Assembly: GCA_029964075.1 (NCBI GenBank)
Contig: CM057133.1
Coordinates: forward strand, 11,990,699-12,054,698
From: Patiria pectinifera
Lineage: Eukaryota > Echinodermata > Asteroidea > Valvatida > Asterinidae
Length of the DNA stretch: 64,000 nt
Direction: 5' to 3'
Shown here: positions 18,075 to 58,099 of the stretch, one piece after another
How positions within the stretch are numbered: the first letter of the stretch is position 1
How the letters are laid out: each line of letters opens with the position of its first letter
Program-made: the position numbers and the translations under genes
The notes under the pieces: generated by a model
What the model was told of the DNA's origin: nothing
Databases searched by the model: none
What the model saw: the letters and a program-made list of their open reading frames with translations, nothing else

Positions 18075-21000
18075 GTTTGTTATACTTTCACAAACATTGG
18101 AATTTTAGAAGCAAAGCATGTTTTTTTCTAAAACATTTTAACAACTTTAAGAGCTGAGAGTGAGAATTTGCCGATGGAGCTAATAATCACAACTAATATG
18201 AGCACGAAGCTCCAACGTTGTTTGGTTCGGAGCCCTACATTTTGGAAGCTAGACGCTCTGTGGTGCAATCTGGGGCAATTTCTGACCACTTTAACCAATT
18301 TCTCTTGAGCAAAAGATCGTCATTTGAACCTCATTTTCGATTTTGGAGTTGATTATTTTGTATGTATTGTGCATAATGGCAATGATGTTATATGTATGTG
18401 CCAGACATTTAAGGAGATGTAAATTTCTGTCTAGGTTTTATTTGAGGGGCTTCGTCTTGACAAGAAGCATCAGGGTCGGAAACTTGCCCGGACGAATGTG
18501 CTGAACCTGAGATCAATATCTGAAAAAGTGGTAAGTACTGGATCTTTGTTATTCTCATTACGTTCTTTACAGTCAAAATTACTGTAATTGATTAAGTGCT
18601 TATTAATCGTTTCAAAATTGTTATTGTTTTTATGGCCATTTTTGTAGACTTTCATCATCATAACACCCCTGTCATTATTGACTTCATGGTTACTGTGATA
18701 TTGTCAATAGTCAGTCGTCAGATTTCAATCTCGTCAATCTTCAATCCTTGGTCAAATCATCAATTGTCAATTGTCATTCTTGCTGTGACCATACTTAACA
18801 TTGTTATTGTTATTGCCGTTGTCATTGTCATTACCATTGTCGTTATTTTTGTCATCGATGTTGTCATTGCCATTGCAACTGCCATTGTCATTGTAATTGC
18901 ATTGTCATGTCATTACCATAGCCCGCTATTGCCATTGTCATTGTAATCACCATGGTCATTTTCATGGTGACTATCATTGTCATTTCCCTTGTCACCATTG
19001 TCACCACACCATCACAAAAAATACCTTTCTCTTTCTGCTTTGCTCTTATATCATTTATTCCTCATTCTAGTTGCTCAAGCTGCAAGACTTTCACCCCTTG
19101 CCCAAATTAGTGCTACAGTACAGACAGGTAAGATCTTTGCTTGTCCATCATTTGTCCTCTTGTCTGCGTGTCTGATTTCTTTTTCATTCTCACTAACTGA
19201 ACCAACCTGAAGTAGACCTCACCAAAGCAACTTTGAAACTTTTCTGTACAAATAATTTCAGCATATTTTTGTTCTGAATCAGTTGTTTATGTTATTAACC
19301 CCATGGGCCCGGGAAGCTGTCATGGCCGCGGCCGCTAATCCTCATGCAGTTGCCAGCTGTGGTATGCCGTGGCACACGGCTAGTGGGTAGTTCCACAGCT
19401 GCTGCTTTTGTGCTGTCCCGCTACCACACAAAGGCTGTGCAGTCATGCGGGCCACTTGCTCTATGTGTGGAGGAATGTCCCCATTATAACCCGTGCTTAA
19501 GGGGTTAATAATGCACATTTAATTCATGGTAACAAAAATATGCTGAGTAGCCATATTTAGTGTCTTTTAAATTCCTGCAAATTTGAGTTAACATATGATT
19601 TTGAGTTGACATATGATCTTTAACATATGACAAAACGAAGTACATTTTGCACTATTCAGTGTCTTTTCAATTCCTGCAAATTTGAGTAAACATATGATTT
19701 TGAGTTAACATTTGATCTTTAACATATAACAAAACGAGGTACATTTGGCACTATTTTAAAAAAAAAATTTGATTGCAGTAATCATTAAAACCTGTTATTT
19801 ATATATATATACATAACAAAACTCAGAATTGTAAATTTGGTTCTTTTTTTGTTTATATTTTCACATTTAAACAAATTTGACACTCCAATGATAAAGATTT
19901 GTCTTGAGTAAAATTTTGTTTTACAAGGTGTACAATCAACAGCAACAGTATTCTCAAAAAAATCCTTTTTCACCTTTCAAAGGTTATTTTAAAGATGCAT
20001 AACTAAAATCAAATGGCTATAAAATTGAATTTTGCGAAAAAACACGCAAACTTCTTTAAGGCTGTAATAATTTCAAACGTGAAATTTTACAAAATGACTT
20101 TTTTTCACAGTGATCAGACAAATCCAGAGCTAGACTTACAATAACTACAGATAACTACAATATACATATTCTAATAATACTATCAAGCATACACCCAAAA
20201 GTGACCATGGCAACACAGCAACAACGACTTTAAAATTCTGTTTGAAAGATAACATTTAGAAATAATATACACTTAAAGGGAAAATACAACATTTTCAAAC
20301 ATCAAAAAATTAAACTACCAAATTATTTTGAAATACCTTACTGAACTGTTGATGAATGACAGTCTAAAGCATCCTGTAAAACCATGGCACCTGGTGTGCT
20401 GACATTTTCAAGAAAAATGGTATTTTCGTATCAATTTCCAACGCTGGTCAGCCGACCAGCGTTGGAATAAACTGGCTTTTTTTTCAGTACTTGCCACAAT
20501 TGACCATATTTAGTTAGTCCACATTAGTTTGCAATTGATTACACACCTATGAACGCGTGCAAACCTGCTAGACTGGTTCCCTGACCTTACAATATCCCAG
20601 TGTCTATAAATTGCTCTGTTTCATCTTATATGTAGTCAGGGAACCAGACTACATGAAAATGATTGCTTTTCTTCGTTTTCATAGCATCTACGAATCCAAA
20701 ACGTTAAACAGTCATTGAAACAATATTTATTTGCTACATATTACCAACCCCCCAAATCCATCCATTTCTGAAAAATACAGCAAAAGCAAATGATGTATAT
20801 TCCCTTTAAGAATGTCAAGCTGCTGGAAAATATAAGGAGAATAACAAATTGTAAGAGTTTGAATTTCACCATGAAATATGTGTACATCACATACATTTTT
20901 TGAAGCGTTTACATGTCCACACTGGCACTTGTAGTCTCCATGCATTTTATGACAAGTGGTCATTTTCTTAGCCTTATTGTAATACCTTTAATAAAGGGCC

Positions 21001-24000
21001 CATAAGTAGGTGACATAGCATCAGAGTTGTAACGAGTCACTGATTTTTGTGACTCGAGTCGAGTCGAGTCATTTTAAAGTAGTGACTCAAGTTGAGTCAT
21101 TTTAAAGAAGTTACTCGAGTTGAGTTAAGTCATTAGGTCAAGAAGATTGAGTCGAGTCGAGTCAAATATATAGCTTGAGTCAATTTGAGTCAAATATATA
21201 GCTTGAGTCAATTCGAGTCACGAATATGTGAACACTATATACCAAAACTTCTAAAAGGAGGGCATAAATTTAGCTGTCGTTCAAATCCAAGAGCTTTATA
21301 AGAAATCGCTCAAAGCCTAGGTCCGGTTCCTGGATAGTATTTTGTGCATTCTAGAACCATGAGGTGGGAGTCTGTGACACGTTGTATGTATGTACATGAC
21401 AAGTGGCTGCTGTACCGTACTGTATTTGCAAAGCACCATAAGTCATTGCAAATACTTTTCGCAAAGTTTTGCTTTTATTTTTTGGACTCGAGTCTTATTA
21501 GCCTTCGCTCAAGCTGAGTCAAGTCTTCTGATGAGAGACTCGAGTCGAGTCAAGTCATTTGCTTGCAGTGACTCGAGTCGAGGTCATTTACCTATAGGGA
21601 CTCGAGTCGAGTCGAGTCACCTAAAATTGTGACTCGAGTCGAGTCATTGACTTGAGTCATTACAACTCTGCATAGCACACCATAAATTTTTGCATTTACG
21701 TCATTCACAGGTTTTTTAAACTGAGAAAGCATTGCTCATTGTATGAGACTTTCAGCTATTGACACTTCAGTTTGTTCACGACACTTTGGTAGGCATTACG
21801 CAGGACCAATCTATGCTCCTTTTGTGTGTACGTCAGAAACACTGCCCCAGCAACCGTTTGAAATAGGGCAAAACCACTCAGAATATAAAAGGTCGTGAAA
21901 TGCGCTTGTGTTGGTTGTGCAAAAAATACAACAACGTTGAGATGGATAATGGTTGGTAACCAGGCTATAATAATAGTGGCAAAATAGGTGCAAGAATACC
22001 GATTTGATTTTGACGAGCACTGTTTGGGGCGTCGCACTGGATTTTGATTTTCATTGGTTGCAATCTTTCCAAGGTTGATGGTTTCCGCTACGATTTTGCG
22101 CTGTTGATTTCTGGCAATGCGAGCCAGCGCAACCACAAATACTGTGAGTGCAATTAAACAGGGAAAAGATGTAATGTCTAACAGCAGAAAAAGTTTAAGC
22201 ATGAATGTCTTATTTGAAAGCATGTCATTAAGTGAAATGTAGTCATTTTCAAAATCACCTAGGGTGCCTACGAATAAACTAATACAAGTTACAACTAAGA
22301 AAACCCACACGGCCAGAATAATGCCACCCGCAACTTTGTTACTCATCAGACGCAGGTACTGCATCGGTCTAGAAATTTTGAAATATCTGTCGGCAGCAAT
22401 GACGGCGGAATTAAGAAAGTATCCAAGCGTAAACACAATAGTCAGACATGTCAGCAGTACTTGCAGAGATTTCGAATGTTCAGATGAAAAGCCTAAAAGG
22501 CCTGTGAGAGCTATCAATACGATGTTGATAAATTCATCGACGAGAACGCTCACCAAGAAATAATTGGATTGGCTGTGCAGCGTAGGACAGAAAGCCACAG
22601 AGGAGATGATCCAGAGATAAATAGGACAGACAATTGTGGCAATGACAGTAATTGCCATGATCTTAATAACGGGTGACTCAGGCTCGATGGCTGGAGCTTG
22701 GGTACTAAACGAGTCATTGAGCTCCATGGTTGCTCTGCTATAAATTGTAGGAAAATTAAACTCTGTATATGGTTCTCTGTTTTCTGACAGAGTTGCAGCT
22801 CCCCTTGTCCCTTTTCTTTGTCCTTGACTTAACTGCTTGCTTAGACACTACAGTATCGCATCAACAGTATTGCAATATTTGCATTCACAGAGAAACAGGT
22901 TTGCATACTTGTTGTGAAGTCTCTTCTACTTGTCCTTCCAGTCTGTCAGGCAGGACTGATAAATTCCACCTCCTGGCCCCAAATCCTCCTGATGTTGCTG
23001 TGCATATATGTAGGATTCACTGAGTTTCTGTAGACATAATCTTTTTTTGAACCAATGAAATGGACAAGTTCATTTTACCAAAGGGTTTGGCGTTTTACAG
23101 TGGTACAAGTTGATACAACTTGTTGTCCACGTAACTCCGGGAACATGTCCTTTACTCGGAATGTATCAAGACTTGTATCCAATCACGTACATAACACAAC
23201 CCTTCAATGTTTTTAAATGTTTCATATGAACAGTAGTTTTTTTGTTTTGTTTTTACTTTTGAGTTATACGATTCCGGTGTTGCACAACTTGTCATACACT
23301 GCCTTATTTACACCAACAATGAGAGTGGCTTTTGTTTTAGTCCCAAATATCCCTGCCACAGTCTCTGTTCAGTTCCAGAGGACCAAACTAATGTCGCTAT
23401 CATGTGTTGAGGTCCTGAGCTCAAGATGCAGCGATATCTGGATTAAGTCAAAGATCCTTCTCCTTCAGTATTGACTTCAGCAGTGACAAGGGCCTCACTG
23501 TGAGTGGTGTGTTTAATAAGTTTTGCAGGATGTTGTCCAATCATGCCACTCCCTGCAGTTTTGCAGGAGGTTGTCCAATCATGCCGTCAATCATGATCAG
23601 TGATGTTATTTGGTTGTCTACCCGCAGGCAATATTGGGAGTAAACACAAATCATAGATGTCTTGACAGATATTAAAGTCCGGAATTATAACTGATGGATC
23701 ACATATTGGTGCTTTGAGTGTTAGTAGGAATAATTGCTTAGGCATTGATTGCTATCAGTGCTGGCAGTCAATGCTTGGAGAGATACTAAAGTTTGGACTC
23801 TATAATTGATGGATAATAAATTGGTGTCCTAATTACTGCAGATGAAATACGTGGGCTGTGGTTGGGACTTTTTTTGGTGGGAAAACTTGTGGTTCGCCTT
23901 TGTCCAAAAGTGAACATGGGTGAATTTACAGACTTCACTTTGTGGTACATTCTGTGGAAGTAGGCGTGGTTTCACCGAAACATGTCTCAAGGTTTTTACT

Positions 24001-27000
24001 TTCATCTGTAATGAAAAAAAAATGTCATTTTTGTGGTATTATAGGTGTTAGGTAGTTCCACCATGTACAAAGCGTGAAGTCTTAACTAGAATCATCAGGT
24101 TATTTACATTTTCCGTCACAAGACTCCAATAAACTGTTGTAAACTTGCTAGTTATCTATGTCATCTAGTGCACTTCATTGCACTTTAAACTGTCATGAAG
24201 TTGCAAATATGCAAACAAAATCATGCACACACATGTCTTTGGTTGACTGTACAGTAAACTCTGTTGTATCCGGATGTGAGAACCACTCTAAGGAGGTTGT
24301 ACATGTACCGCTTATGTAAAATTAAGAAACTCACTTTGAATGTTGTCATGTAGAAAGTAGAACAGGTCGGAATAAGCGAGATTCGGTCTGCTGATTCAGT
24401 CTCCTTACTTGAGGAGCTAGTTGAACCACGACGAAGGGAATGAGATGGATTTCTTGAAAACCATTTTAAGGTGCAAGCTCACAATATGTAGGCCCATCAA
24501 TGGTTTGCTGCAGTATATTCCAGTGGCTCAAAGACTTGTGACAGCCGAAAATGAGTTTTCAATCCACAAGGAGATCTGTTGACTAACCTCCGTTTTATGT
24601 ACAAAAATCACTTAGACATCCAACGCTGATGTTTGGAAGTTTGTAGTCATAGCAGTCCATGAATCTTGTTCCCATGTACTTCACAAAGAGGATAATAAAC
24701 AGTCTTGTAGCATGTACATCATCAGATCCTCATACACAAATTGTCTCTTTTTTTGGATCAGAAAATGTTGCCCTGAAGGTTTTTCGGCAGGTTCAGTTGA
24801 GCAACGGACTCATCAAGCAAGATGTTGTTTTTCTGAATGTGAAGTTGCCTCATGACGCAGTTGCTGTTAAATGAACACAGGCACAGCCTACATCTCGCCT
24901 ATTTGTACCTGCCCCTCATCAAGCTGAGCTGTAATTACCGCCTGGCCTGAAACCCATTATAAAATCATGTCATTATTGCTTGTCGATCCACTCCGCAATG
25001 AGCTTAATGTCCACCCACTACCTCATGCCTGTCTACTTGACAGCAGATAAAACGATGTCAGGAAATTGGTTTGCGGGTGATGAGAAGAGTACTGCAAACA
25101 ATCACACTCATGTGATATCCACATTAAAAGCTTATTGTTTTTTTCCCCCCAATATCCAACTCTTTGTCTCAATATAAACTTCGGATGAATTGTTGCTCTT
25201 GTTCCAACTGAGTCAACAATGGGGAGAGATGTGTTCTTTCTCATCCGCCCATATAATGTTATCGGTAAAGTGTCCAATACTGCAATTTGTTTTCACTGTA
25301 TTGTGCTACAACTTTTCTTTAAAAAATAATAATAAAGAAGATTGAGTCGAGTCGAGTCAAATATATAGCTGGAGTCAATTTGAGTCAAATATATAGCTTG
25401 AGTGAATTCGAGTCACAAATATGTGAACACTATATACCAAAACTTCTAAAAGGAGGGCATAAATTTAGCTGCCGTTCAAATCCAAGAGCTTTATAAGAAA
25501 TCGCCCAAAGCCTAAGTCCGGTTCCTGGATAGTATTTTGTGCATTCTAGAACCATGAGGTGGGAGCCTGTGACATGTTGTATGTTTGTACATGACAAGCG
25601 ACTGCTGTACCGTACTGTATTCGCAAAGTACCATAAGTCATTGCAAATACTTTTCTCAAAGTTTTGCTTTTATTTTTGGGACTCGAGTCTCATTAGCCTT
25701 CGCTCAAGTTGAGTCAAGTCTTCTGATGAGGGACTCGAGTCGACTCGAGTCATTTTCTTGCAGTGACTCGAGACATTTACCCTTAGGGACTCGAGTCGAG
25801 TCGAGTCACCTAAAATTGTGACTCGAGTCGAGTCATTCACTCAAGTCATTACAACTCTGCATAGCACACCAAACTTTTTACATTTACATCATTAACAGGT
25901 TTTTTAAACTAAGAAAGCATTTCTCATTGTAATGATGTATGAGACTTTCAGCTATTGACACTTCAGTTTGCTCACGACACTTTGGTAGGCATTACGCAGG
26001 ACCAATCTATGCTCCTTTTGTGTGTACGTCAGAAACACTGCCCCAGCAATTGTTTGAAATAGGGCAACACCACCCAGAATATAAAAGGTCGTGAAATGCG
26101 CTTGTGTTGGTTGTGCAAAAAATACAACAACAGTGAGATAGATAACAGTTGGTAACCAGGCTATAATAATAGTGGCAAAATATGTGCAAGAATACCGATT
26201 TGATTTTGACGAGCACTGTTTGGGACGTCGCACTGGATTTTGATTTTCATTGGTTGCAATCTTTCCAAGGTTGATGGTTTCTGCTACGATTTTGCGCTGT
26301 TGATTTCTGGCAATGCGAGCCAGCGCAACCACAAATACTGTGAGTGCAATTAAACAGGGAAAAGATGTAATGTCTAACAGCAGAAAAAGTTTAAGCATGA
26401 ATGTCTTATTTGAAAGCATGTCATTAAGTGAAATGTAGTCATTTTCAAAATCACCTAGGGTACCTACGAATACACTAATACAAGTTACAACTAAGAAAAC
26501 CCACACGGCCACGATAATGCCACCCGCAACTTTGTTACTCATCAGACGCATGTACTGCATCGGCCTAAAAATTTTGAAATACCTGTCAGCCGCAATGATG
26601 GCGGAATTAAGAAAGTATCCAATTGTTAACATAGTAGGCATGCATGCCAACAGCACTTGCAGAGATTTAGAATGTTCAGATGAAAAGCCAATATAAAGGC
26701 CTGTGAGAGCTATCATTACGATGTTGATAAATTCATCGACGAGTACGCTCACCAAGAAATAATTAGATTGGCTGTGCAGCGTAGGACAGAAAGCCACAGA
26801 GGAGATGATCCAGAGATAAATAGGACAGACAATTGTGGCAATGACAGTCATTACCGTGATCATAATAACGGGTGAAGCAGGCATGATGACAGGAGCTTGG
26901 GTACTAAACGAGTCATTGAGCTCCATGGTTGCTCTGCTATAGATTGTAGGAAAATTACTCTGTGAACAGTTCTCTGTTTTCTGACAAAGTTTCAGCTCCC

Positions 27001-30000
27001 CTTGTCCGGTTTCTTTGTCCTTGACTTAACTGCTTGCTTAGACACTACAGTATCGCATAGACAGCATTGCAGTATTTATATTCATAGAGAAAAGGGTTTG
27101 CAGCCTTGTTGTATAGTCTCTTCTACTTGTCCTTCCAGTCTGTCAGGCAGGACTGATAAATTCCACCTGCTGGCCCCAAATCCTCCTGATGTTGCTGTGC
27201 ATATATGTAGGATTCACTGAGTTTCTGTAGACATAATCTTGTTTGAACCAATGAAATGGACAAGTTTATTTCACCAAAGGGTTTGGCGTTTTACAGTGGT
27301 ACTAGTTGAAACAACTTGTTGTTCAGGTAACTCCTGCAACAAGTCCTTTACGCAGAAGTTATCAAGACCTGCCTCCAATCACGTACATAACACATCCCTT
27401 CAATGTTTTTAACGTTTCCTTTGAACAGAAGTGTATTTTTTTTTCACTCTTCAGTTTAGACGATTCCAATGTTGCACAACTTGTCACACACTACCTTATT
27501 TACACTGACAATAAGAGTGGCTTTTGTTTTAGTCATAAAGATTTCTGCCACTGTCTCTGTTCAGTTCCACAGGACCAAACTAAGACTTCTATCAGTTGTT
27601 GAGGTACTGAGCTCAAGATGCAGCGATATCTGCATTCAGTCAACGATCCTTCTCCTTCAGCATTGACTTCAGTAGTGACAACTGACAAGGGCCTCACTGT
27701 GAGTGGTGTGTTTAATAAGTTTTGCAGGATGTTGTCCAATCATGCCACTCCCTGCAGTTTTGCAGGAGGTTGTCCAATCATGCCATCAATCATGATCAGT
27801 GATGTTAATGGGTTGTCTACCCGCAGGCAATATTGGGAGTCAACACAAATCATAGATGTCTTGACAGATATTAAAGTCTGGAATTATAACTGATGGATCA
27901 CATATTGGTGCTTTAATTATTGGTAGGAATAATTGCTTGGGCATTGATTGCTGTCAGTGCTGGCAGTCAATGCTCAGAGAGATACTAATGTTTGAACTTT
28001 ATAATTGATTGGTGTCCTAATTATTGCAGATGAAATATGTGAGCTGTGGTTAGGACTTTTTGGCGGGGAAAACCCGAGGTCCGCCTTTGTCCAGTTGGTG
28101 AACTTGCCGACTTCACTTTGTGGTACGTTCTGTGGAAGTACGGTAGGTGTGATTCCACCAAAACATCTCTTAAGATTTTTTAACCTCATCTGTAATAGAA
28201 ACAATGTCATTTTTGTGGTATTATAGGTGTTGGGTTTATCGCCATAGGTGCCTCTGTTCTTGTGTGCTCAAGTCGAAGTTAGATGCAATTCAGTTTGGTA
28301 ATAATTATTTTGCACGCATCACGCAGGACCTGTCTGTGCTCATATTGTGTAAAGGTAAGAAACAGCGCCCCAAAAATCACTTGCAGCATCGAAAGACCAG
28401 TGAAAATATACGCCAAGGTTCTTAAAGCATGTGAAGTGAAACTTACTTGTAAAACAGTGATGTTAAGAACAATGATGGTTGGCACCATTGCAAGGATAAT
28501 TGTGGTAAAGTAAATGCATGAGTACCATGTTGATTTGGATGGTCGCGCATGCCGGGGTCCCACGGCCTGGTTATTGTCGTTGGTTGGGTTGTTGGTGGCA
28601 ATGTTTCCGAGGTTAATTCTCTCAGCTTTGATCTGACGCTGCTGCTTTCTTGCTATGCTCACCAGTCCATAAAGACAAGCGGTCATCATCAATATACTTG
28701 GTACTGAATGTATATCCAACAACACAACTCCCCGAGTCCAGAAATTAAGACTCTGGATCACTTCACTGGGTGAAACATGATCGTTGCTGAAGTCACTCAG
28801 ACTAGCAACAAATAAGCCAATGTAAGTCACCAACAACAGAACCCACTCAGCCAGAATGAGGCAGCCACATAATTTGTTGGACATCAAACGCATGTACTGC
28901 ATGGGCCTGGCAATTTTGAAAAATCTATCGGCTGCCACTGTGGCTGAGGCCCCAAAATAGCCATAGCATGCTACAAGCGGGAACAACTGTATTGCCAAAA
29001 CTAATGCTTTGGGGTGACAAGTATCAGTTCTTATTGAAATATAGATGATTGTTGTTAAAATCCCTATCAATTCAGTGACAAATAAACTGACCAGAAGATA
29101 ATTGGACTCACTTCGGAGTCTGCGACTGAAAGCCACAGAGAAAATGACCCAGAGGTAAATAAGACAGATGATGACACCAGCTACTGATAGGCAGACTTGA
29201 GCAGTAAATGTAAATGTAAAAGAATCTACAGTGCAATTTGTCGTCATATTGTTGGCATGAACGTAAACTTGCACAGTCCCATTCAAACAAAAAATTCCTT
29301 AGATCTAGATTTTTCGTTTGCTACATCACAACCAACATTTGTCAACTGGTTGTTGGCAAAATGTTGCCAGCCACAGTCTCCAAATAATCCGACAAAAATA
29401 TTGAAAATACAGAATATTCAAGAGACTCTTCCAGGAACTAAATGGATTTGTCTCTTTCATAAATACTAAGGATGTAAATGTGTATTTAGTCAAAATCCGT
29501 TTCCAACCACAGTTGAAAATTATGCCCATTGATTGCCACACAAACAAAATGGTGCTAGTGTTTTGCAAAGATAAGTCTGAATTGTGCTTTTAGCAAGTGA
29601 TCTCCTACATGAATTACACGGTGTCCTTACTTCACTGATATTTTATCACGTTCTTTACATCAGTTAGTTTGTATTAATATTACCCTTAAATACACAGTCT
29701 TGCTATGCCGGGAAATGCTGTTAGACATCTCCAGTATAAGATTTGGTTATATCCATGTAATGTGCTGTTCTTTGTGAAGTCGAGTGGACTTTTAAATTCT
29801 GTAGGTTTACCTCCACACTGTCAGTCCAAGACAGCACTGAATGACTGAGTGGATGCCATTAGCTGCTCTTGCATTTACAAATGTTTCCTTCTTTACGGGA
29901 AAAGAAGAAAAGACTCTTTCCTTGGTAGTTCCACCATGCACGTAGCCTCAAGTTGTATCTGGATTTGAGAACAGTTTTGAGGAGGGAGCTGTACATGTAC

Positions 30001-36000: not shown

Positions 36001-39000
36001 TTGGCAGATTCAGTCCTTCTAAATTTGAGGCGTGCGATCACACCCCCACGCCATCGCACGCCTAAAAGCTTCCCGAGAAGTGTGAATAATTGCACGCCTG
36101 AATTTCCTTGGACCACAGAATCACACACCTAGAAAATCACACACCTAGAAAAACCACACGCCTAGAAAAATCCAGGTGTGCCTTTTTCCACACGCCTGTG
36201 ATTTTCAAATCAGAAGGACTGCAGATTGCAGACAGCATTACTCCAATCATTGTCGTCATCAGGCTAAAGTTCATCCATTATTTAGATAAAGCCCACATGA
36301 ATACACCATTTTTTTGCAGCCATTCCCATATGTTGTGATGTCATCTCTCCATTGTCTCCCGTAGACTTGTGTATATAAATGTATCTGCTGCATAAACATG
36401 TATTCTATAGCAAAAACCGTTGAAGTTACCACCATTTCAGTTTGTTAAAAATCATTTTGCACGCATCGCGCAGGACCTGTCTGTGCTCTTTTTGTGTAAA
36501 GGTCAGAAACAGCGCCCCCAAAATCATTTGCAGCACCGACAGAACAGACAAAATGTACATCCAGCGTTTTACAGCATGTGAATCGAAACTTACTTGAAAA
36601 ACAGTGATGTTAAGAACAATTATGCATGGCACCATTGCAAGGATGATTGTGGTAAAGTAAATGCATGAGTACCATGTTGATTTGGATGGTCGCGCATGCC
36701 GGGGTCGCACGGCCTGGTTATTGTCGTTGGTTGGGTTGTTGGTGGCAATGTTTCCGAGGTTAATTCTCTCGGCTTTGATCTGACGCTGCTGCTTTCTTGC
36801 TATGCTCACCAGTCCATAAAGACAAGCGGTCATCATCAATATACTTGGTACTGAATGTATATCAACCCACATAAGTGCCCGAGTAAAAAAGTTAACATTG
36901 AGGAGTACTTCGTTGAGTGAAATGTGATCATTGCTGAAATCACTCAAACTAGGAACAAACACGCCAATGAAGGTCACCAACAACAGAACCCACTCAGCCA
37001 GAATGAGGCAGCCACATAATTTGTTGGACATCAAACGCATGTACTGCATGGGCCTGGCAATTTTGAAAAATCTATCGGCTGCCACTGTGGCTGAGGCCCC
37101 AAAATAGCCACAGCATGCTACAAGCGGGATTAAATGTATTGCCAAAACTAATGCTTTGGGGTGACAAGTATCAGTTCTTATTGAAATTAAGATGATTGTT
37201 GTTAAAATCCCCATCAATTCAGTGACAAATAAACTGACCAGAAGATAATTGGACTCACTTCGGAGTCTGCGACTGAAAGCCACAGAGAAAATGACCCAGA
37301 GGTAAATAAGACAGATGATGACACCAGCTACTGATGCGCAGACTTGTGCAGAAAATGGAATTGTAAAAGAATCTGCAGTGCAGTTTGTCGTCATATTGTT
37401 GGCATGAACGTAAACTTACATAGTCCCATTCAAACAAAAAATTCCTTAGTTCCAGATTTTTCGTTTGCTACATCACAACCAACATTTGTCAACTGGTTGT
37501 TGGCAAACTATTGCCGGCCACAGTCTCCAAATAATCCGACAAAAATATTGAGTTTTGAAACCCTTCAATATTGAAAATACAGAATATTCAAGAGATACTT
37601 CCAGGAACTAAATGGATATATATGTTTCTTTCATAAATACTAAGGATGTAAATGTGTATTTAGTCAAAATCCGTTTCCAACCACAGTTGAAAATTATGCC
37701 CATTGATTGCCACACAAACAAAATGGTGCTAGTGTTTTGCAAAGATAAGTCTAAATTGTGCTTTTAGCAAGTGATCTCCTACATGAATTACACGGTGTCC
37801 TTACTTCACTGATATTTTATCACGTTCTTTACATCAGTTAGTTTGTATTAATATTACCCTTAAATACACAGTCTTGCTATGGAAATGCTGTTAGACATCT
37901 CCAGTATAAGATTTGGTTATATCCATGTAATGTGCTGTTCTTTGTGAAGTCGAGTGGACTTTTAAATTCTGTAGGTTTACCTCCACACTGTCAGTCCAAG
38001 ACAGCACTGAATGACTGAGTGGATGCCATTAGCTGCTCTTGCATTTACAAATGTTTCCTTCTTTACGGGAAAAAAAGAAAAGACTCTTTCCTTGGTAGTT
38101 CCACCATGCACGTAGCCTCAAGTTGTATCTGGATTTGAGAACAGTTTTGAGGAGGGAGCTGTACATGTACTGCCACTCACATAAAATACGAATCTCACTT
38201 TGAATATGGTCGCGGACTTCGGAGAAAGGGAAGATATTCACAACAAAAGTAGATGATCAGGATGCATGCACTATGTCGTAACTTCACACAGGTCGACAGC
38301 TAGTAGCTCAGGCACAGCTTGATCCTCTAAAGTCAGTCGCTGACTGTGCTGTGTCATCACAAGGTTGACCCGACGGCGGCTTTAGAATCATCTGTTTGTT
38401 TCTACGTTCCGTCACATGACTCCTGTAAACTGTTGTTGTAAACTTGCTAATTATTTGAAGTCATCTAGTGCACATAAAAGTGTGATGAAGTTGTAGATGT
38501 GAAAAAAATGATGCACTCACTTCTGTGTTATTAACTGTACCGTTGATCCTGTTGTATCTGGATTTGAGATCAATTGTGAGGAGGAAGTTGTAAATGTTCC
38601 GCTCACGTAAAATTAAGAACCTCGCATTGAATGTGATCAGGTAGAGAGTGGAACAGGCCAGGATAAACAAGATTCTGACGAGTTAGTCGGTTTACTTGAG
38701 CTAGTTGAACCATGACGAAGGGAATGAGATGGCTTTCTTGAAAACCATAAGGTGCAAGCTCACAATATGTTGGTCCATCAATGATCTGGTGCAGTTTATT
38801 CCAGTGGCTCAAAGACTTGCAGCAGATAAAATTGAACTTTTCAATTCACATGGAGATCTGTTGACTGGCCTCATTTATATGTACAAAAAGCACCACGCTT
38901 GTATCTCCGATGTTTAGAAGTGTGTATCATCGCAGATTTTGTGTCTTTGTACTTGACTAAGAAGAAGAACTAGTTTGTAGCAAGTACATTATCGAATCCC

Positions 39001-42000
39001 CGTCTGCAAAATTCGCCAATTGTTTGGATCAGAAAATGCTCTGAAGTCATTTCGCAGGTGCAGTTACAAGCATCAGACTCATCAAGCACGACGTTGTTTT
39101 TCTGAATTTGAAGTTGCCTCACGTAGCGATTGCTGTTAAATGAACACAGGCACAGCCTACATCTCGCCTATTTGTACCTGCTTCTCATGAGCTGTAATCA
39201 CTGCCTGGCTCCAAAACGCATTATAAAATCATGCCATCGTCTTTCATCAGTCCTCTCCACGATGAGCTTAATTTCCACCCGCTGTCCCTCGCCTGTCTAC
39301 TTTACAGCAGGTAATTGATGGCCCCATAATTGGCTTGCAAATGGTGTGCAGATTATTGGAAACAAACTGTCAGTCCTAATTAATCTGATATGAATATTGG
39401 AAACAGAACTTTTGGCTCTTTCGGTTACCCACTTTTTTCGTCACATGCTGCATCTTTGATGATTTTCGTTTTTGTGTCAACTGAGTCATACAAAATGTAT
39501 ATCCATTTTTTTCAGCGGGGAAAGGATGTGTTGATTTTCAATCTGCCAACTATTTTGTATCATCATTGTCACTTTAACATGATATATATACTCTTGCATG
39601 TCTTTCCTAGGACTTTCAACAAATTAATGCTATAAGTCAGCTGGCTGTGATGAATGTGTGTACATGTATACGTGCCTTGCCCCGAAATTGCATTTTGGGA
39701 GAGTTTGGATGTTTAGGAGATCTTTGAACCAAGTTTCTGGGACTCCCACAACAATTTTGGTCACCACAACTACAGAGCGAGTATGTGTGTGTATTTGTGA
39801 GTTCATCAGTTGCTCAGTTTCTTCTGAACATGTTCTTTAGATTCACTTGAGACTTGAAACAAGCCTCAACCCTGATCCTGAGGTGTGCTTATGACCATAA
39901 TGTCACAATGACATCTGAAAGTATCAAAATACAAACACTTTTAGGAGACTACTTAACCGTGTTCATTAATTTTGATAAACTGATGAAAATCCTCTGCTAT
40001 GTTAAGTATAAGTACAAAAGTCCAAAACATTTTTGTATACAGTGTATGTTCCAACCCACATGCATGAACTAAAGTGGCCATCTATTTGATATTGCTTGCA
40101 AATTGGCAGATTCAGTCCTTCTAAATTTGAGGCGTGCGATCACACCCCCACACCATTGCACGCCTAAAAGCTTCCCGAGAAGTGTGAATAATTGCACGCC
40201 TGAATTTCCTTGGACCACAGAATCACACACCTAGAAAATCACACTCCTAGAAAAACCACACGCCTAGAAAAATCCAGGTGTGCCTTTTTCCACACGCCTG
40301 TGATTTTCAAATCAGAAGGACTGCAGATTGCATACAGCATTACTCCAATCATTGTCATCATCAGGCTAAAGTTCATCCATTATTTGCATAAAGCCCTCAT
40401 GAATACACCATTTTTTTGCAGCCATTCCCATATGTTGTGATGTCATCTCTCCATTCCATTGGCTCCCATAGACTTGTGTATATAAATGTATCTGCTGCAT
40501 AAACATGTATTCTATAGCAAAAACCGTTGAAGTTACCACCATTTCAGTTTGTTAATAATCATTTTGCACGCATCGCGCAGGACCTGTCTGTGCTCTTTTT
40601 GTGTAAAGGTCAGAAACAGCGCCCCAAAAATCAGTTGCAGCACCGACAGAACAGACAAAATGTACATCCAGCGTTGTACAGCATGTGAATCGAGACTTTG
40701 TTGAAAAGTACCGATGTTAAAAACAATTATGCTTGGCACCCACGCAAGGATGATTGTGGTAAAGTATATGCATGAGTACCATGTTGATTTGGATGGTCGC
40801 GCATGCTGGGGTCGTATGGCCTGATTATTGTCGTTGGTTGGGTTGTTGGTGGCAATGTTTCCGAGGTTAATTCTCTCAGCTTTGATCTGACGCTGCTGCT
40901 TTCTTGCTATGTTCACCAGTCCATAAAGACAAGCGGTCATCATCAATATACTCGATACCGAATAGACATCCAGCATCATAATTGCCCGTGTCACGAAATC
41001 AAGATTGAGGAGCATTTCATTAAATGAAATCTGATTGTTGCTGAAATCGCTCAAACCAGCAATAAATAAGCCAATGTAAGTCACCATTAATATACCCCAC
41101 TCAGCCAGAATGAGGCAGCCGCATAATTTGTTGGACATCAAACGCATGTACTGCATGGGCCTGGCAATTTTGAAAAATCGATCTGCTGCCACTGTGGTTG
41201 AGGCTGGAAAATAACCATAGATTGCTACAACTGTGAACAACTGTATTGCCAAAAGTAATGCTTTGGGGTGACAAGAATTAGTCCCAAGTAAAATAACAAC
41301 AGTTGTCATGAAGACCCAAATAAATTCAATGCCAAATAAACTGACCAGAAAATAATTGGACTCACTTCGGAGTCTGCGACTGAAAGCCACAGAAAAAATG
41401 AGCCAGAGGTAAATAAGACAGATGATTACATCAGCTACTGATACGCAGACTTTTACAGGAAATGGAATTATAAAAGAATCTACAGTGTAGTTTGTTGTCA
41501 TATTGTTTGCACATCTGCACAGTCCCATTTAATTGAAAACAATTCCTTTTCTTTTTACCACTTTGTACCTCTGACATAAAAATGAAGAACCTTACTTTGA
41601 ATGTAGTGGTTTAGAAAGTGGAACAGGTCAGGATAAACAAGATTCTGTGGATTCAGTCTCCTTACTTCAGGATAGGAGCGGAGCTAGTTGAACTATGAAG
41701 AAGGGAATGAGATGGCTTTCTTGCAAACCAAACCATAAGGTGCAAGCTCACAATGTGTAGGCCCATCGATGGTTGGTGCAATATTCCAAAGACTTGCAGC
41801 AGATAAAAATGAACTTATCAATTCACAAGGAGATCTGTTGACTGACCTTGTTTGTATGTACAGAAAGTACTAAGCTTGCATCTTAGATGTTAAAGAGGCT
41901 TGTAGTCATTGCAGTCAGTAAATCTTGTTCCTATGTACTTGACAAAGTGGTAAATAACCAGTTTTGTAGCAAGTACATCATCAAATCCTCGTATGGAAAT

Positions 42001-45000: not shown

Positions 45001-47328
45001 GAGAAATTAACCTGATGTCTGCTGTATCCAAAGTTTCTCTCTCTCTGTTGATTCTTGTCCATTTTCTGTTTGATCAAGTGAACTGACTTTAATCCCATTG
45101 TTGATGTTTGATGTATTAAAGGTTTTTTTTTCTCAAAAATAGAGTGTCGCTCCACTAGCTGTCATAGTTCCATTCAAAGAATGTTTTAACTGCTTGAACT
45201 AGTATCTACTGCACTGCGAAACTTGATGGCGTGCGCACTGCATCTACAATAGGGTCCAATCGTATGACGTCAAAGTACCATGTGACCATCTGGTTCCCCT
45301 GTGATTGGCCACCATTGCAGTAGTCAAGCGTTGGGTTTATAGCAATCAAGTTATGTGCTTAATCTAGGCCTTCTTTTCACGTAAAAACACCAGGCTGTTT
45401 AATCAAATGGCATAAAAGTCACTTTTTGTGCCATGTACGGATTTCATAATTGCGCGACCCAGCACTGGGTGTTGGCTCTGCATGTTTTCTGACAGTTTTC
45501 GCAGTCCATAGCAGCTGTGAAGGCTTGCCCACTACATACTCAGATGTAGGCCGGGTTGGTGGCTTTTACAGTTGAGTTTGAAAAACGAAATCCCCAAATT
45601 CAGAGGCAAGCTCCTCATCCTTCCAAGTTCATCCCAAGCTCCGTCACAGTGTCTCACGTAGCTCCTCAGAGTCATTCATTATTGTGCAACATCTGCCCGT
45701 AGAGCAATTGTAATCAAATGAAATCTGGAGCAGATATTGACATATTGCAAGGTTCCCTTGGTTTTCTGGCTTTGTGTCAACAAGTTTCTATTGTTTGGAG
45801 GCCAGTCACTAGGCAACACAAAGGCCAGTATTGCAAGTGCGTTTTGGTTGCTAAGTGACCCAAACTTTCAGAAAACATGTCGGTGTTCCTGGTCTTGTTC
45901 TTGGCATCATTTGATATTTTTGTTTGAGTCAGGTCAATTAATCTTGGACAAATATTGAGTCTGTAAGCAGCTGTGATTGTGGCATTTTCCCCTAACTTTA
46001 TCTATTTTTGAAAACTGCCTAGTTAAATTTTAGCATACACTGACATGTAGCCAATGCAGCATTCACGATTGTGGTGAATCTTGTCACGACCTGAACTCTC
46101 CAAATACGGAAAATCAGACTCGTACCATCTGCATGTGCCCAAGGAGAATGAAATCTGTGTTTGAGCGTCAAATTTGGTCCAACGGATGGCCCCAAATTGT
46201 CTTCTCACTCTCAAACAAATAACTGATTGTCACTACCAGACAGAGCTTTTGTTTGTCATTTATTTCATCTCAAGAGACCTATGTGTACTAATCATAAACT
46301 TTTAAGCGCAAATTTGAAGAAAAAAAAGGTTCTTTGGTTTTTAAAAATTTTTTTTCACTGTTGGATTTCTGTGCAGCTTAGCATCTTTACTTTCACACAA
46401 ATTTAGAGTTAACACATTATAAAAGACAAAACAATTAACAATGCCACTAACTTTTATTCTCTTCCATTTGTGCAAGTGTTTGAGAGGGTTTTCTTAGTTC
46501 TCACATGTTTACATCTTTATGCTGTCCATATAGTTGTCAACAAGAATTATTTTCTGTTATCCTCAGCTTTGTGCAGAGTATCAGTTTTCCTACGATTTTT
46601 TACATACATTCGCTTTTGTCCATAAAGCTGGGGGAAAAATAACATGCTCAAAATCATGTGTAAGAAACTTTAGTATGCAAAATAAATTATTGTGGTAGAT
46701 AATATGCAAATTATGCCATGGTATAGTTTTTGAATCCGTCATCTTGTTCATTCAGTTCAATAGACTTCACTTCTCATATGTTCCTTTATTGAATTTTTCA
46801 CGTCAGGTTGTTAGTGCAAAATTTTGAAAAGTGTTTAGGCTGATTCATATTTCACATTTACACGGGACCAGTCTGTTAGCACTCGGTGGATAAGCTGTAA
46901 ATATGAGAGCTAAGGGTACTTTTCGATAATCATTATTTTCCGAAGGTTTTTTTTTGTGACAAATCCAATAAGAAATTTGCAAAGATGTTACAAATTAGTG
47001 ACGTTTCACTGCTATGATAGCAGTTTCATAGCAGTGAAATGTCACTAATTTGTGAGTAACATCTTCGCAAATTTCTTATTGGATTCGTCAAAAAGAACCT
47101 TCAGTAATATTTTGACAAACAATCCAGACGAACTTATTCAAAGAATCATTATTTTCGGCTATTGTTGCCATTCACGCGCATGGCTTGATCTACCTGTTCC
47201 TTGACTTATAGCTTACATTATCTCATGTATCTGTATATCCTGTAGGCTCGGTGCACCCACGGCTAGTGTCACCAGTGCAGGGAGGGAGAAGACTAAGAGG
47301 ATTGTGTACTCCGTCATCTATGGAGTTG
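18048..47328 (+). CDS. POLN: DNA polymerase nu-like family-A polymerase, partial, scattered exons
   Basis: Family-A polymerase of the POLN/POLQ group, which acts in DNA repair and translesion synthesis in the nucleus (family knowledge). Three exons are visible on the + strand: 18435-18530 (VLFEGLRLDKKHQGRK), 19071-19127 (HPLPKLVLQYRQ) and 47246-47328 (REKTKRIVYSVIYG). The first two form the segment before the palm; HPLP..LEYRQ is a POLN hallmark. The third is the fingers O-helix, with the R...K...Y..YG pattern that binds incoming nucleotide. The exon order is right. However, the second exon ends in phase 0 and the third starts in phase 2, so the 130 or so residues between them, including catalytic motif A, must lie on exons I cannot see, or are lost. 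A tentative 27-base exon is at 18048-18074. Seven antisense receptor genes sit between the second and third exons. The gene could be broken. Confidence 0.7.
18435..18530 (+). CDS. POLN: POLN exon before the palm domain
   Basis: Thirty-two codons in phase 0/0 between CTGTCTAG and GTG|GTAAGT. VLFEGLRLDKK followed by NLRSISEKV corresponds to the family pattern VLF.KL.L followed by STSE.VL (family knowledge). Good splice sites on both sides. Confidence 0.75.
18660..19015 (+). repeat. ATTGTCATT microsatellite in a POLN intron
   Basis: Degenerate ATTGTC/ATTACC hexamer array between the two POLN exons. Translated it gives a false hydrophobic peptide of Val and Ile. Confidence 0.75.
19071..19127 (+). 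CDS. POLN: POLN exon with the HPLP motif
   Basis: Nineteen codons in phase 0/0, LLKLQDFHPLPKLVLQYRQ, between CATTCTAG and CAG|GTAAGA. HPLPK and the E/Q-YRQ end are highly characteristic of POLN. Confidence 0.8.
19295..19508. mobile_element. GC-rich TTAA-bounded element
   Basis: TTAACCCC at the left and GGGGTTAA at the right enclose about 200 GC-rich bases in otherwise AT-rich DNA. The inverted match beyond those eight bases is weak. Possibly a piggyBac-type MITE. Confidence 0.5.
19509..21030. other. Intronic or intergenic AT-rich sequence, nothing recognised
   Basis: Contains a local duplication (TTCCTGCAAATTTGAGT near 19572 and 19671) and no exon I can support. The missing POLN exons were looked for here and not seen. 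Confidence 0.5.
21037..21662. repeat. GAGTC pentamer arrays at the 3' side of receptor 1
   Basis: Two blocks (about 21037-21237 and 21484-21662) of degenerate GACTCGAGTCGAGTC repeats, separated by unique sequence. The same arrangement recurs at 25340-25857 beside receptor 2, so it belongs to the duplicated unit. Confidence 0.8.
21756..22727 (-). CDS. Rhodopsin-like 7TM receptor 1 (GPCR), single exon, 323 aa
   Basis: Class-A G-protein-coupled receptor in the plasma membrane; ligand unknown. Seven hydrophobic segments lie at about residues 21-46, 54-79, 86-113, 131-154, 176-205, 246-270 and 278-300. DRY is at 113-115, Trp at 141 (TM4), Pro at 189 (TM5) and AWLP at 255-258 (TM6). Unusual features: Glu65 where Asp2.50 is expected, GAVFL at 294-298 instead of NPxxY, and no Cys at 3.25 or in loop 2. 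N4 is an N-terminal glycosylation sequon. ATG at 22727 has a strong context (CAACCATGG). It is intact and intronless, and pairs with receptor 2 as the more divergent subgroup of the cluster. Confidence 0.88.
   Translation of the reverse strand: MELNDSFSTQAPAIEPESPVIKIMAITVIATIVCPIYLWIISSVAFCPTLHSQSNYFLVSVLVDEFINIVLIALTGLLGFSSEHSKSLQVLLTCLTIVFTLGYFLNSAVIAADRYFKISRPMQYLRLMSNKVAGGIILAVWVFLVVTCISLFVGTLGDFENDYISLNDMLSNKTFMLKLFLLLDITSFPCLIALTVFVVALARIARNQQRKIVAETINLGKIATNENQNPVRRPKQCSSKSNRYSCTYFATIIIAWLPTIIHLNVVVFFAQPTQAHFTTFYILSGFALFQTVAGAVFLTYTQKEHRLVLRNAYQSVVNKLKCQ
22728..25330. other. Spacer upstream of receptor 1
   Basis: The part up to about 24,040 is a diverged copy of 26,927-28,225. The part 24,400-25,300 matches blocks at 30,500-31,300, 34,600-35,340, 38,700-39,450 and 41,690-42,290, including the conserved block at 24,872-24,915. 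No exon recognised. Confidence 0.6.
24872..24915 (-). promoter_or_regulatory. Block conserved upstream of five receptors
   Basis: A stretch containing CACAGCCTACATCTCGCCTA, nearly unchanged at about 30972, 35040, 39142 and 42132. On the receptor strand it reads GGGGCAG|GTACAAA, a possible splice donor of a 5' untranslated exon. Function inferred from conservation only. Confidence 0.35.
25340..25857. repeat. GAGTC pentamer arrays at the 3' side of receptor 2
   Basis: Second copy of the paired arrays seen at 21037-21662, shorter in its first block. Confidence 0.75.
25952..26926 (-). CDS. Rhodopsin-like 7TM receptor 2 (GPCR), single exon, 324 aa
   Basis: Close paralogue of receptor 1, lying about 4.2 kb away. 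The main differences are in the N-terminus, the first extracellular loop (one extra residue, GLYIGF) and TM3. The second half is almost identical. It keeps DRY at 114-116, Glu65 at 2.50 and AWLP in TM6, and the GAVFL end of TM7. The start has the same CAACCATGG context. Intact. Confidence 0.88.
   Translation of the reverse strand: MELNDSFSTQAPVIMPASPVIMITVMTVIATIVCPIYLWIISSVAFCPTLHSQSNYFLVSVLVDEFINIVMIALTGLYIGFSSEHSKSLQVLLACMPTMLTIGYFLNSAIIAADRYFKIFRPMQYMRLMSNKVAGGIIVAVWVFLVVTCISVFVGTLGDFENDYISLNDMLSNKTFMLKLFLLLDITSFPCLIALTVFVVALARIARNQQRKIVAETINLGKIATNENQNPVRRPKQCSSKSNRYSCTYFATIIIAWLPTVIYLTVVVFFAQPTQAHFTTFYILGGVALFQTIAGAVFLTYTQKEHRLVLRNAYQSVVSKLKCQ
26927..28278. other. Spacer upstream of receptor 2
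   Basis: Diverged copy of 22,728-24,040. I see only short chance reading frames and no exon. Confidence 0.55.
28279..29286 (-). CDS. Rhodopsin-like 7TM receptor 3 (GPCR), single exon, 335 aa
   Basis: Member of the second receptor subgroup (receptors 3-6). It has DRF at 120-122, Glu72 at 2.50, Pro196 in TM5 and GALFL at 306-310 in place of NPxxY. TM6 has AMVP, so the toggle Trp6.48 is replaced by Met267. The third loop carries the cluster signature INLGNIATNNPTND. The N-terminus (MNGTVQVYVHANNM) is longer than in receptors 4 and 5; the downstream Met14 aligns with their start. The NGT and NCT sequons suggest N-glycosylation. Confidence 0.87.
   Translation of the reverse strand: MNGTVQVYVHANNMTTNCTVDSFTFTFTAQVCLSVAGVIICLIYLWVIFSVAFSRRLRSESNYLLVSLFVTELIGILTTIIYISIRTDTCHPKALVLAIQLFPLVACYGYFGASATVAADRFFKIARPMQYMRLMSNKLCGCLILAEWVLLLVTYIGLFVASLSDFSNDHVSPSEVIQSLNFWTRGVVLLDIHSVPSILMMTACLYGLVSIARKQQRQIKAERINLGNIATNNPTNDNNQAVGPRHARPSKSTWYSCIYFTTIILAMVPTIIVLNITVLQVSFTSHALRTLAYIFTGLSMLQVIFGALFLTFTQYEHRQVLRDACKIIITKLNCI
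29287..32328. repeat. Tandem-unit spacer A (between receptors 3 and 4)
   Basis: First of three spacers that are close copies (29287-32328, 33298-36425, 37395-40532). Its landmarks are the conserved block at about 30972 and a CACACGCCT motif array at 31,938-32,110. Small reading frames in it, such as 30291-30500, are shared by all copies but overlap on both strands and look non-coding. Confidence 0.75.
31938..32110. promoter_or_regulatory. CACACGCCT / AGGTGTG motif array
   Basis: Opens with the inverted pair AGGCGTGCGAT and ATCGCACGCCT, then repeats CACACNCCTAGAAAA-type units about every 16-20 bases, ending with AGGTGTGCC and CACACGCCTGTG. The same array occurs at about 36,035-36,190 and 40,127-40,310. 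It resembles clustered T-box half sites (AGGTGTG); function is inference. Confidence 0.4.
32329..33297 (-). CDS. Rhodopsin-like 7TM receptor 4 (GPCR), single exon, 322 aa
   Basis: Seven-TM protein of the second subgroup with DRF at 107-109, Glu59 at 2.50, AWMP in TM6 (Trp254) and GALFL at the TM7 end. I use the ATG at 33297 (MTTNCTADS). The upstream codons used by receptor 3 are cut off here by a stop (ACT ATG TAA). The TM7 region matches receptor 3 better than receptor 5, while the rest is closest to receptor 5. Intact. Confidence 0.87.
   Translation of the reverse strand: MTTNCTADSFTIPFPAQVCASVGGVIICLIYLWVIFSVAFSRRLRSESNYLLVSLFVTEVIGILTTIIYSSIRTDTCHPKALVLAIHLIPLVACCGYFGASATVAADRFFKIARPMQYMRLMSNKLCGCLILAEWVLLLVTFIGVFVPSLSDFSKDHISLNEVLLNVNFLTRALMLVDIHSVPSILMMTACLYGLVSIARKQQRQIKAERINLGNIATNNPTNDNNQAIRPRHARPSKSTWYSCIHFTTIILAWMPCIIVLNITVFQVSFTSHALRTLAYILSGLSVLQMIFGALFLTFTQNEHRQVLRDACKIIITKLKWW
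33298..36425. repeat. Tandem-unit spacer B (between receptors 4 and 5)
   Basis: Near-identical to spacer C over most of its length. It has the conserved block at about 35040 and the CACACGCCT array at about 36,035-36,190. No exon recognised. Confidence 0.75.
36426..37394 (-). CDS. Rhodopsin-like 7TM receptor 5 (GPCR), single exon, 322 aa
   Basis: Very close to receptor 4 over the first two thirds. Its third extracellular loop and TM7 (SHAVKRWMYILSVLSVLQ) match receptor 6. TM6 has AMVP like receptor 3, so Trp6.48 is Met254. DRF, Glu59 at 2.50 and the GALFL ending are kept. The same upstream stop as in receptor 4 sets the start at 37394. Confidence 0.87.
   Translation of the reverse strand: MTTNCTADSFTIPFSAQVCASVAGVIICLIYLWVIFSVAFSRRLRSESNYLLVSLFVTELMGILTTIILISIRTDTCHPKALVLAIHLIPLVACCGYFGASATVAADRFFKIARPMQYMRLMSNKLCGCLILAEWVLLLVTFIGVFVPSLSDFSNDHISLNEVLLNVNFFTRALMWVDIHSVPSILMMTACLYGLVSIARKQQRQIKAERINLGNIATNNPTNDNNQAVRPRHARPSKSTWYSCIYFTTIILAMVPCIIVLNITVFQVSFDSHAVKRWMYILSVLSVLQMILGALFLTFTQKEHRQVLRDACKMIFNKLKWW
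37395..40532. repeat. Tandem-unit spacer C (between receptors 5 and 6)
   Basis: Third spacer copy, with the conserved block at about 39142 and the CACACGCCT array at 40,127-40,310. No exon recognised. Confidence 0.75.
40533..41528 (-). CDS. Rhodopsin-like 7TM receptor 6 (GPCR), single exon, 331 aa
   Basis: The most diverged member of the second subgroup. DRF at 116-118, Glu68 at 2.50, AWVP in TM6 (Trp263) and GALFL at the end of TM7. TM2, the first loop and TM3 differ strongly from receptors 3-5, whereas the DRF-TM4 boundary and third loop are nearly identical. The start at 41528 gives MGLCRCANNM. Met10 aligns with the start of receptors 4 and 5 and is an alternative. The NYT sequon suggests glycosylation. 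Confidence 0.86.
   Translation of the reverse strand: MGLCRCANNMTTNYTVDSFIIPFPVKVCVSVADVIICLIYLWLIFSVAFSRRLRSESNYFLVSLFGIEFIWVFMTTVVILLGTNSCHPKALLLAIQLFTVVAIYGYFPASTTVAADRFFKIARPMQYMRLMSNKLCGCLILAEWGILMVTYIGLFIAGLSDFSNNQISFNEMLLNLDFVTRAIMMLDVYSVSSILMMTACLYGLVNIARKQQRQIKAERINLGNIATNNPTNDNNQAIRPQHARPSKSTWYSCIYFTTIILAWVPSIIVFNIGTFQQSLDSHAVQRWMYILSVLSVLQLIFGALFLTFTQKEHRQVLRDACKMIINKLKWW
41529..43433. other. Spacer upstream of receptor 6
   Basis: The first 800 bases are a diverged copy of the unit spacers, including the conserved block at about 42132. The stretch 42,900-43,110 has a weaker copy at 45,710-45,880 (shared AGGCCAGTCACTAGGCAAC). A 53-codon frame at 43276-43437 (+) starts in an AAGATGGCGGC context but has no recognisable similarity. 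Confidence 0.5.
43434..44429 (-). CDS. Rhodopsin-like 7TM receptor 7 (GPCR), single exon, 331 aa
   Basis: The most separate member of the cluster, sharing features with both subgroups. DRY at 114-116, Glu62 at 2.50, Pro190 in TM5, AWVP in TM6 (Trp261) and GALYL at 301-305 instead of NPxxY. The third loop keeps the signature NLGNIATNDPTN. The start is at 44429 (MELNSTSSS), with the NST sequon. The MELN start resembles receptors 1 and 2. Intact. Confidence 0.87.
   Translation of the reverse strand: MELNSTSSSTNPWTIPTFARACFITGAIIVSLIYLWIIFSVLFSRRLRNPSNYFLASLFLNELLCNVSIIILISIFPQNDFNSVHLKTPRLTVIVTTFTTLYGYFFNTTIVAADRYFKIAKPMQYMRLLSNKVCACIILVVWGLLVVTNLGLLFSGLNDFQADYISFNDLSSNASFLIRLTVILDMYSLPNVLMLTFFVIALVVIARNQQRKIEAERFNLGNIATNDPTNKNNQAVRPKGVHSRKSIKYSCIYFATIIGAWVPFTMAVNITAFRMGQSNNYLFLKIAFILACISLFQMIFGALYLTYAQSEHRKVLCDSFKMIMNKLACKN
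44430..46940. other. Sequence upstream of receptor 7, nothing recognised
   Basis: AT-rich, with weak copies of the 42.4-43.1 kb spacer near 44,930-45,070 and 45,710-45,880. I looked for POLN motif-A exons here and saw none. Confidence 0.5.
46943..47102. mobile_element. 160-bp hairpin element
   Basis: Arms 46943-47017 and 47026-47102 are inverted copies with a short loop; the stem includes TCCAATAAGAAATTTGC and its complement. It ends about 140 bases before the POLN O-helix exon. Confidence 0.75.
47246..47328 (+). CDS. POLN: POLN exon encoding the fingers O-helix
   Basis: After ATATCCTGTAG, in phase 2, it reads APTASVTSAG then REKTKRIVYSVIYGV and ends with one base of the following Gly codon at G|GTAAGT. 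R...K...Y..YG is the family-A motif-B helix (family knowledge). VT...RE.TK..VY..YG.G is closest to POLN among family members I know. No later POLN exon was seen before 58 kb. Confidence 0.8.
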
Positions 47329-55000: not shown

Positions 55001-55122
55001 ATCGAATTGGAATGTGTTCAGGGTTACCTTAGGCATCTTTCCTGCAAGTTTCAAGGAATTTCATTTTTTGGCCAAAATTGAAAAAAAATGCAAGGGGTTA
55101 GCCTTACATTTTTGATTAAATT
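49060..55122. repeat. Satellite array, about 195-bp unit, about 30 copies
   Basis: Head-to-tail copies marked by GGGGTTAGCCTTACATTTT, from about 49,300 to 55,095 (29 in register from 49,630, mean spacing 195 bases). The copies are about 90-97 percent alike by eye. The two leftmost units carry 132 extra bases (49075-49206 and 49406-49537), making a period of 328-331. A block of eight units is itself duplicated (about 50,400-50,895 and 51,953-52,448). Reading frames in the array are by-products of the repeat. Confidence 0.95.
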
Positions 55123-56182: not shown

Positions 56183-56793
56183 ACTGCTATCCACGGGCCC
56201 AGGAACACGTGAAATGTCTGTGAAAACACGGCGAGAAACTTGTGCTGTCACTTAACTGGATTCAGATTTTGCAAGGCATGCACACACATCGTGCATTGGT
56301 TGTTACGTCAAACACGTTTACTTGGGCCAGTGAAAGCTTCACGAGGTCTATAAGATGCAGCTGCTACTTCTAGGCAATCTCAAGTGTGGGTGCTGGATGC
56401 CAAGACGTCATCACTGTTCAATCTGCTGTATCCGTAAAGAGCCCTCCTGTGTGGCTAAGGTGCTGGTTGCTGCCAGAAGCTCCTGACATCTACCAGAAAA
56501 TGAAAAATGAACAAACAAACAAAAATATTGAATCAATTAATTTGTGTGCAAATAATCCCACAAATAGAAAATACTGTGGAAAGTGCAAAACAGGGTTGCA
56601 GAAAAAGAAATACGAATGTTCACAGAAAAGTCTGATCAGCCACTCCACCCCAGCCTAAATTGTTTTTGAGAAACCAAACATTTTTGGTTTTGCATTTATA
56701 AAAATCACACAGTAAAAAGTAAGAGTACCGATGATTGTTTTCATCACATTAGATACAAAGAGACAATAATAATGGGTAGTTGAGCATTGGAGA
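56183..56793. other. Unassigned segment with a Cys-rich short frame
   Basis: A + strand frame after CTTCTAG at about 56,373 reads CGCWMPRRHHCSICCIRK, and another frame is open at 56386-56658. Neither matches a family I know, and splice context is weak. Confidence 0.3.
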
Positions 56794-58095: not shown

Positions 58096-58099
58096 TTAC

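Follow-up and report, generated by a model that had tools for sequence, protein, structure and literature searches.

In a stretch of the Patiria pectinifera genome, pieces of a gene for DNA polymerase nu (POLN) stand on either side of seven receptor genes that are read from the opposite strand. Are these receptors guests in one giant intron of a living polymerase gene, or has their multiplication broken the host? We analyzed the window, i.e. the whole stretch of 64,000 nucleotides, which is without any N. The answer that we tentatively favour is that the locus holds a recently broken POLN copy, situated between a Tudor-protein gene and HAUS8, with the receptor array where the middle of the polymerase gene stood. 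The features on which this answer is built are collected in Table 1.

Table 1. Genes, exons and repeats recognised in the 64-kb window.
Feature	Position	Strand	Remarks
Tudor-domain gene, exons	5931..12910	+	PF00567 in four ORFs, E 2e-16 to 2e-40; extent approximate
POLN exon E1 (VLFEGLRLDKKHQGRKLARTNVLNLRSISEKV)	18435..18530	+	phase 0/0; open frame; AG before, GT after
POLN exon E2 (LLKLQDFHPLPKLVLQYRQ), 57 bp	19071..19127	+	phase 0/0; open frame; AG/GT
Two older units with R1 and R2	21140-24053, 25335-28235 (21140..28235)		90.8% identical
Receptor R1, 323 aa	21756..22727	-	open ORF; 7tm_1 E 2.3e-14
Receptor R2, 324 aa	25952..26926	-	open ORF; 91% identical to R1
Three tandem units, about 4.1 kb, each receptor + spacer	28272-32321, 32322-36418, 36419-40525 (28272..40525)		self-blastn
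Receptor R3, 322 aa	28279..29247	-	open ORF; 7tm_1 E 3e-15
Receptor R4, 322 aa	32329..33297	-	open ORF
Receptor R5, 322 aa	36426..37394	-	open ORF; R4-like (first 808 nt)/R6-like chimera
Receptor R6, 331 aa	40533..41528	-	open ORF; 322 aa from the Met aligned with R3-R5; 7tm_1 E 8.6e-15
Receptor R7, 331 aa	43434..44429	-	open ORF; most divergent; 7tm_1 E 4.4e-18
POLN exon E3 ((W)LGAPTASVTSAGREKTKRIVYSVIYGV), O-helix, 83 bp	47246..47328	+	open frame; AG/GT
196-bp satellite array, 28.6 copies	49534..55112		about 93% match; directly downstream of E3
HAUS8 gene, 3' part	56411..60859	-	exons read by eye; faces the POLN remnant

POLN exons and missing blocks

The initial annotation had placed two POLN segments on the plus strand, in the right order, at 19.1 and 47.2 kb, and both were borne out. 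The peptide HPLPKLVLQYRQ is coded at 19092-19127, within E2, and REKTKRIVYSVIYG is the reading of E3. In a tblastn search with the human POLN core (664 of its 666 residues being confirmed by PDB 4xvi_A), E3 scored 37.7 bits (57.7% identity over 26 aa) and E2 36.2 bits. Both scores are above the best matches of the same query in 40 Markov-1 random sequences of 64 kb (median 23.5, maximum 29.6 bits), and both exons are bordered by AG and GT. A third exon, E1, scored 20.8 bits at 35% identity to human, which taken alone is chance level. It was assigned because of its place, its contiguity with E2, its phase and its splice sites, and not because of its score. In the protein E1 runs directly on into E2, with a phase-0 junction, and E1 aligns with residues 294-325 of the human POLN chain 4xvi_A, as part of a larger match. 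E3 starts on the last base of a codon and stops on the first base of another; its start fits the final W of human ...SQW and its end is the Gly codon at the end of the O-helix. The three exons follow one another in POLN order along the plus strand. Traits described for recognising POLN orthologs are (K/R)xxY in motif 4 (the O-helix), where Pol I has (A/T)xxF, and three POLN sequence inserts (PMC5472330). The RIVY of E3 aligns with KVVY of human POLN, and POLQ reads QICY (QxxY) at this position. A mini-exon at about 18051, just 5' of E1, had been seen by eye; it bears no likeness to POLN and was rejected as a POLN exon.

E2 ends at ...EYRQ and E3 resumes after ...SQW, and these points are 124 residues apart in human POLN (4xvi). 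The block between them holds the TGRLSAKHPNIQ and DFSQIELR motifs, including catalytic motif A. In mouse, the polymerase and pseudo-exonuclease domain is described as encoded by 22 exons, 4-25 (PMC5472330), so that about four exons would be expected between E2 and E3. The middle block was found on neither strand of the 64-kb window, by tblastn or by a three-sequence HMM. When compared with 2961 ORF fragments from both strands, this HMM recovered E2 and E3 and no middle (next match E 3.5). Between E2 and E3, the top match to the block reached 20.8 bits, versus a median of 20.2 and a maximum of 23.5 bits in 30 random intervals. The power of the search was checked with simulated middle blocks, randomly diverged to 35, 45 or 55% identity and divided into 2-5 exons (12 settings of 40 sets). 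The simulated block beat the best window match in every setting, with a lowest best score of 21.6 bits overall, 26.9 bits at 45% identity and 37.0 bits at 55%; for five exons at 35% identity, 95% of the sets exceeded 24 bits. These values apply to exons set in short random DNA with evenly spread changes, unlike real exons. A cluster nested in one intron has flanking exons that are adjacent in the host mRNA. Judged from the protein alignment E2 and E3 are not neighbours, and the proposal of a single giant intron is not supported.

Other parts of the polymerase are also unseen in the window. The C-terminal 172 residues, with the C-terminal motifs, gave at best 20.8 bits, versus a simulated minimum of 28.1 bits. 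For the 69 residues preceding E1, likewise unseen in the window, the search had little power (at 35% identity, 45-88% of the simulated sets exceeded 24 bits), and an HMM for the region upstream of E1 returned only E1 and E2 at E <0.1; these searches lend weak support to an absence of exons upstream of E1. A three-frame Pfam scan from 14.0 to 24.0 kb gave no matches and also missed E1 and E2, which lie inside this interval, so it is too insensitive to count. Motif-pattern searches serve as supporting evidence only; the O-helix pattern missed E3. Two further candidates were rejected. The first, at 31642-31686 (IHLRLETSLNPDPEL, 20.4 bits), was considered as a motif-A remnant, but it sits in a repeat spacer and scores within the random range, and its copies at 35739 and 39841 carry an in-frame stop just ahead of the matching stretch. 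A possible exon after E3, at 55478-55600 (HMM 4.1 bits, E 3.5), is A-rich and unconvincing.

Build and recombination of the receptor array

The seven minus-strand receptors previously counted between the POLN pieces are all present. Each of the 7 ORFs is open, and together they extend from 21756 to 44429 (21.7-44.4 kb), between E2 and E3, with lengths of 322-331 aa from the first Met. All four receptors scanned (R1, R3, R6 and R7) matched Pfam 7tm_1, at 54.0-66.1 bits (E 2.3e-14 to 4.4e-18) for a curated cut-off of 30.5 bits; R2, R4 and R5, left out of the scan, are 86-91% identical to a scanned receptor. The solved chains nearest to R7 are melatonin receptors (E 4.9e-11), a match that indicates class A only. 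From these similarities, the seven genes are predicted to encode class-A (rhodopsin-like) GPCRs.

R3, R4 and R5 each lie in one 4.1-kb unit and R6 continues the series; in self-blastn, 28272-37404 aligns with 32322-41511 at 95.5% identity. A spacer of the older units (24087-25101) is 76% identical to the R3-R5 spacers over about 1 kb, and R1 to R6 therefore derive from one kind of unit. The region upstream of R7 showed no such spacer match in self-blastn. Between receptor subfamilies dS is 1.0-2.1, so the receptor family is old, this being the age of the family and not of the array at this locus.

The three youngest units differ more in their ORFs than in their spacers. Pairwise differences among R3, R4 and R5 amount to 71, 80 and 48 of 969 sites in the ORFs (5.0-8.3%), versus 74/3073, 75/3077 and 32/3127 in the spacers (1.0-2.4%; Fisher p 2.9e-11 or less). 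The ordinary contrast, the reverse of this one, is seen for R1 and R2, with 50/972 differences in the ORF and 164/1905 outside. The excess in the R3-R5 ORFs suggests exchange within the ORFs or homogenised spacers. Up to nt 808, R5 agrees with R4 at 97 of 109 informative sites; beyond this point it agrees with R6 at 19 of 21. In addition, 5 of 12 three-way recombination tests were at the permutation floor of 0.0005. The R5 chimera and the three-way tests thus indicate that the receptor units exchange sequence. The array was rearranged recently, because its youngest spacers are so little diverged and R5 is recombinant.

Origin of the gap between the POLN pieces

A broken POLN copy could have arisen as follows. 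The locus would originally have held a plus-strand POLN gene between the Tudor-protein gene and HAUS8. A minus-strand class-A receptor family would have multiplied inside this gene via tandem duplication and unequal recombination, and exons coding for about 124 residues, motif A among them, would have been lost where the receptor array now stands. As assembled, this copy is predicted to encode no working polymerase, because the motif-A middle exons are gone. We infer that the loss is a real deletion and that it is recent, since the three remaining exons keep open frames and all six splice sites. Under neutrality, a divergence of 1% would leave E1-E3 and the six splice sites all intact with a probability of 0.69; this falls to 0.16 at 5%, 0.026 at 10% and 0.0007 at 20%. 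The model behind these values takes one indel for every ten substitutions and lets two thirds of the indels shift the frame. E1-E3 are thus either still in use or recently released from constraint. What counts against a broken copy is that no exon was seen upstream of E1 or downstream of E3 either; at least two losses, or a gene that extends past the window, would have to be assumed. Neither decayed remnants of the missing exons nor a deletion junction were identified in the window. Very diverged POLN exons might conceivably have escaped the search, an exon such as E1, at 35% identity, being one that would be missed alone.

The initial annotation had also raised the idea that receptor amplification split the polymerase gene. 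This idea fits better than the single intron, as the catalytic middle is absent and the array fills most of the gap; its causal part goes further than these observations. Recombination between receptor units is a plausible agent for the removal of the POLN exons, because it demonstrably occurs in this array. In the strongest form of the idea, the nested receptors would have destroyed their host, unequal recombination having excised the catalytic exons of POLN, and the locus would have been caught just afterwards with its flanks intact. We regard this as unlikely. The main rival to a broken copy is an assembly error or haplotype misjoin: the animal would carry an entire POLN, whose middle exons dropped out when the near-identical receptor units on both sides of them were collapsed. 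It would explain why the remaining POLN exons look live and why the blocks that are missing adjoin tandem arrays or fall inside them (the 4.1-kb units and the 196-bp satellite), and the youngest units are only 1.0-2.4% apart over about 3.1 kb of spacer. However, the window runs through without N or gap, its units can still be told apart, and R1, R2, R6 and R7 differ clearly, so that we consider such an error somewhat unlikely.

E1-E2 and E3 share a strand, follow the POLN order, have compatible borders and keep their splice sites. This fits poorly with separate POLN fragments (partial duplicates or transposed pieces) that never formed one gene here, an intact POLN being elsewhere. Such fragments could account for the pre-E1, middle and C-terminal blocks being all unseen in the window, and for the other genes that adjoin on both sides, but we find this origin distinctly doubtful. 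A live and very long POLN, with receptors nested in its introns and with middle exons that escape recognition because of their divergence or small size, has a precedent in the vertebrate gene, which is described as hosting HAUS3 in its first intron (PMC4591814); the low identity of E1 to human (35%, 20.8 bits) also speaks for it. The middle block, however, has conserved catalytic motifs, and even five-exon sets at 35% identity were mostly found in the simulations (95% above 24 bits). The downstream exons would also need to sit beyond HAUS8, and a gene of this kind appears highly improbable. The last alternative, a truly split gene with its middle exons at a different locus and trans-joined to the rest, has in its favour solely that E1-E3 look live although the middle is missing. 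It calls for an exceptional mechanism, with nothing positive for it, and is scarcely credible.

Known systems and neighbourhood of the locus

Tandem class-A receptor arrays are found in invertebrates as chemoreceptor-like GPCR expansions. The present array resembles them in its single-exon 7tm_1 genes and head-to-tail repeats; unlike them, it is placed between pieces of another gene. Genes nested in host introns have also been described, with guests between host exons and on the opposite strand (PMC8467205). The same holds here, except that the host exons on the two flanks code for non-neighbouring parts of the protein. That POLN can host guest genes is already known, since the first intron of vertebrate POLN is described as hosting the coding exons of HAUS3 (PMC4591814). 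At both loci the coding exons of another gene lie inside POLN. The vertebrate case is described as one guest gene in the first intron, the arrangement being conserved and the first exon shared (PMC4591814), whereas this locus has seven antisense receptors in the polymerase-domain region and lacks the intervening exons. Among the papers listed in literature searches, no title describes receptors nested in POLN.

Loss of POLN would not be surprising, because mice without POLN are reported to be viable, the gene being dispensable in this species, and because its distribution is described as patchy, with presence only in some metazoan groups (PMC5472330). Nested genes, receptor arrays and the absence of POLN from lineages are ordinary in kind, and the locus adds one more case to kinds already known. 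What makes it interesting is the possible breaking of a host by a nested family, the ORF-versus-spacer contrast of R3-R5 being a modest extra. POLN is patchy in animals and has no vital role in mice, and a broken copy, if true, would illustrate one concrete route of its loss, in which a nested tandem family breaks its host, leaving the flanks fresh and the middle replaced by a recombining array. If the assembly has collapsed instead, the locus warns against claims of gene loss near tandem arrays.

The PDB matches of the Tudor gene are to TDRD1/TDRKH-type Tudor proteins. On the other side, the joined exon translation of HAUS8 matches PDB 7sqk_H (E 3e-13). HAUS3, which stands beside POLN in vertebrates, was considered and rejected: a human HAUS3 query gave a best E of 0.82, and the neighbour is HAUS8. 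ARAGORN found no tRNA in the window. Palindromic inverted repeats flank E3, at 46950-47097 and 47858-47975, which we take to be MITE-like. A 102-bp tandem repeat (3.9 copies, 62318-62705) lies upstream of the recognised HAUS8 exons, partly in open frame.
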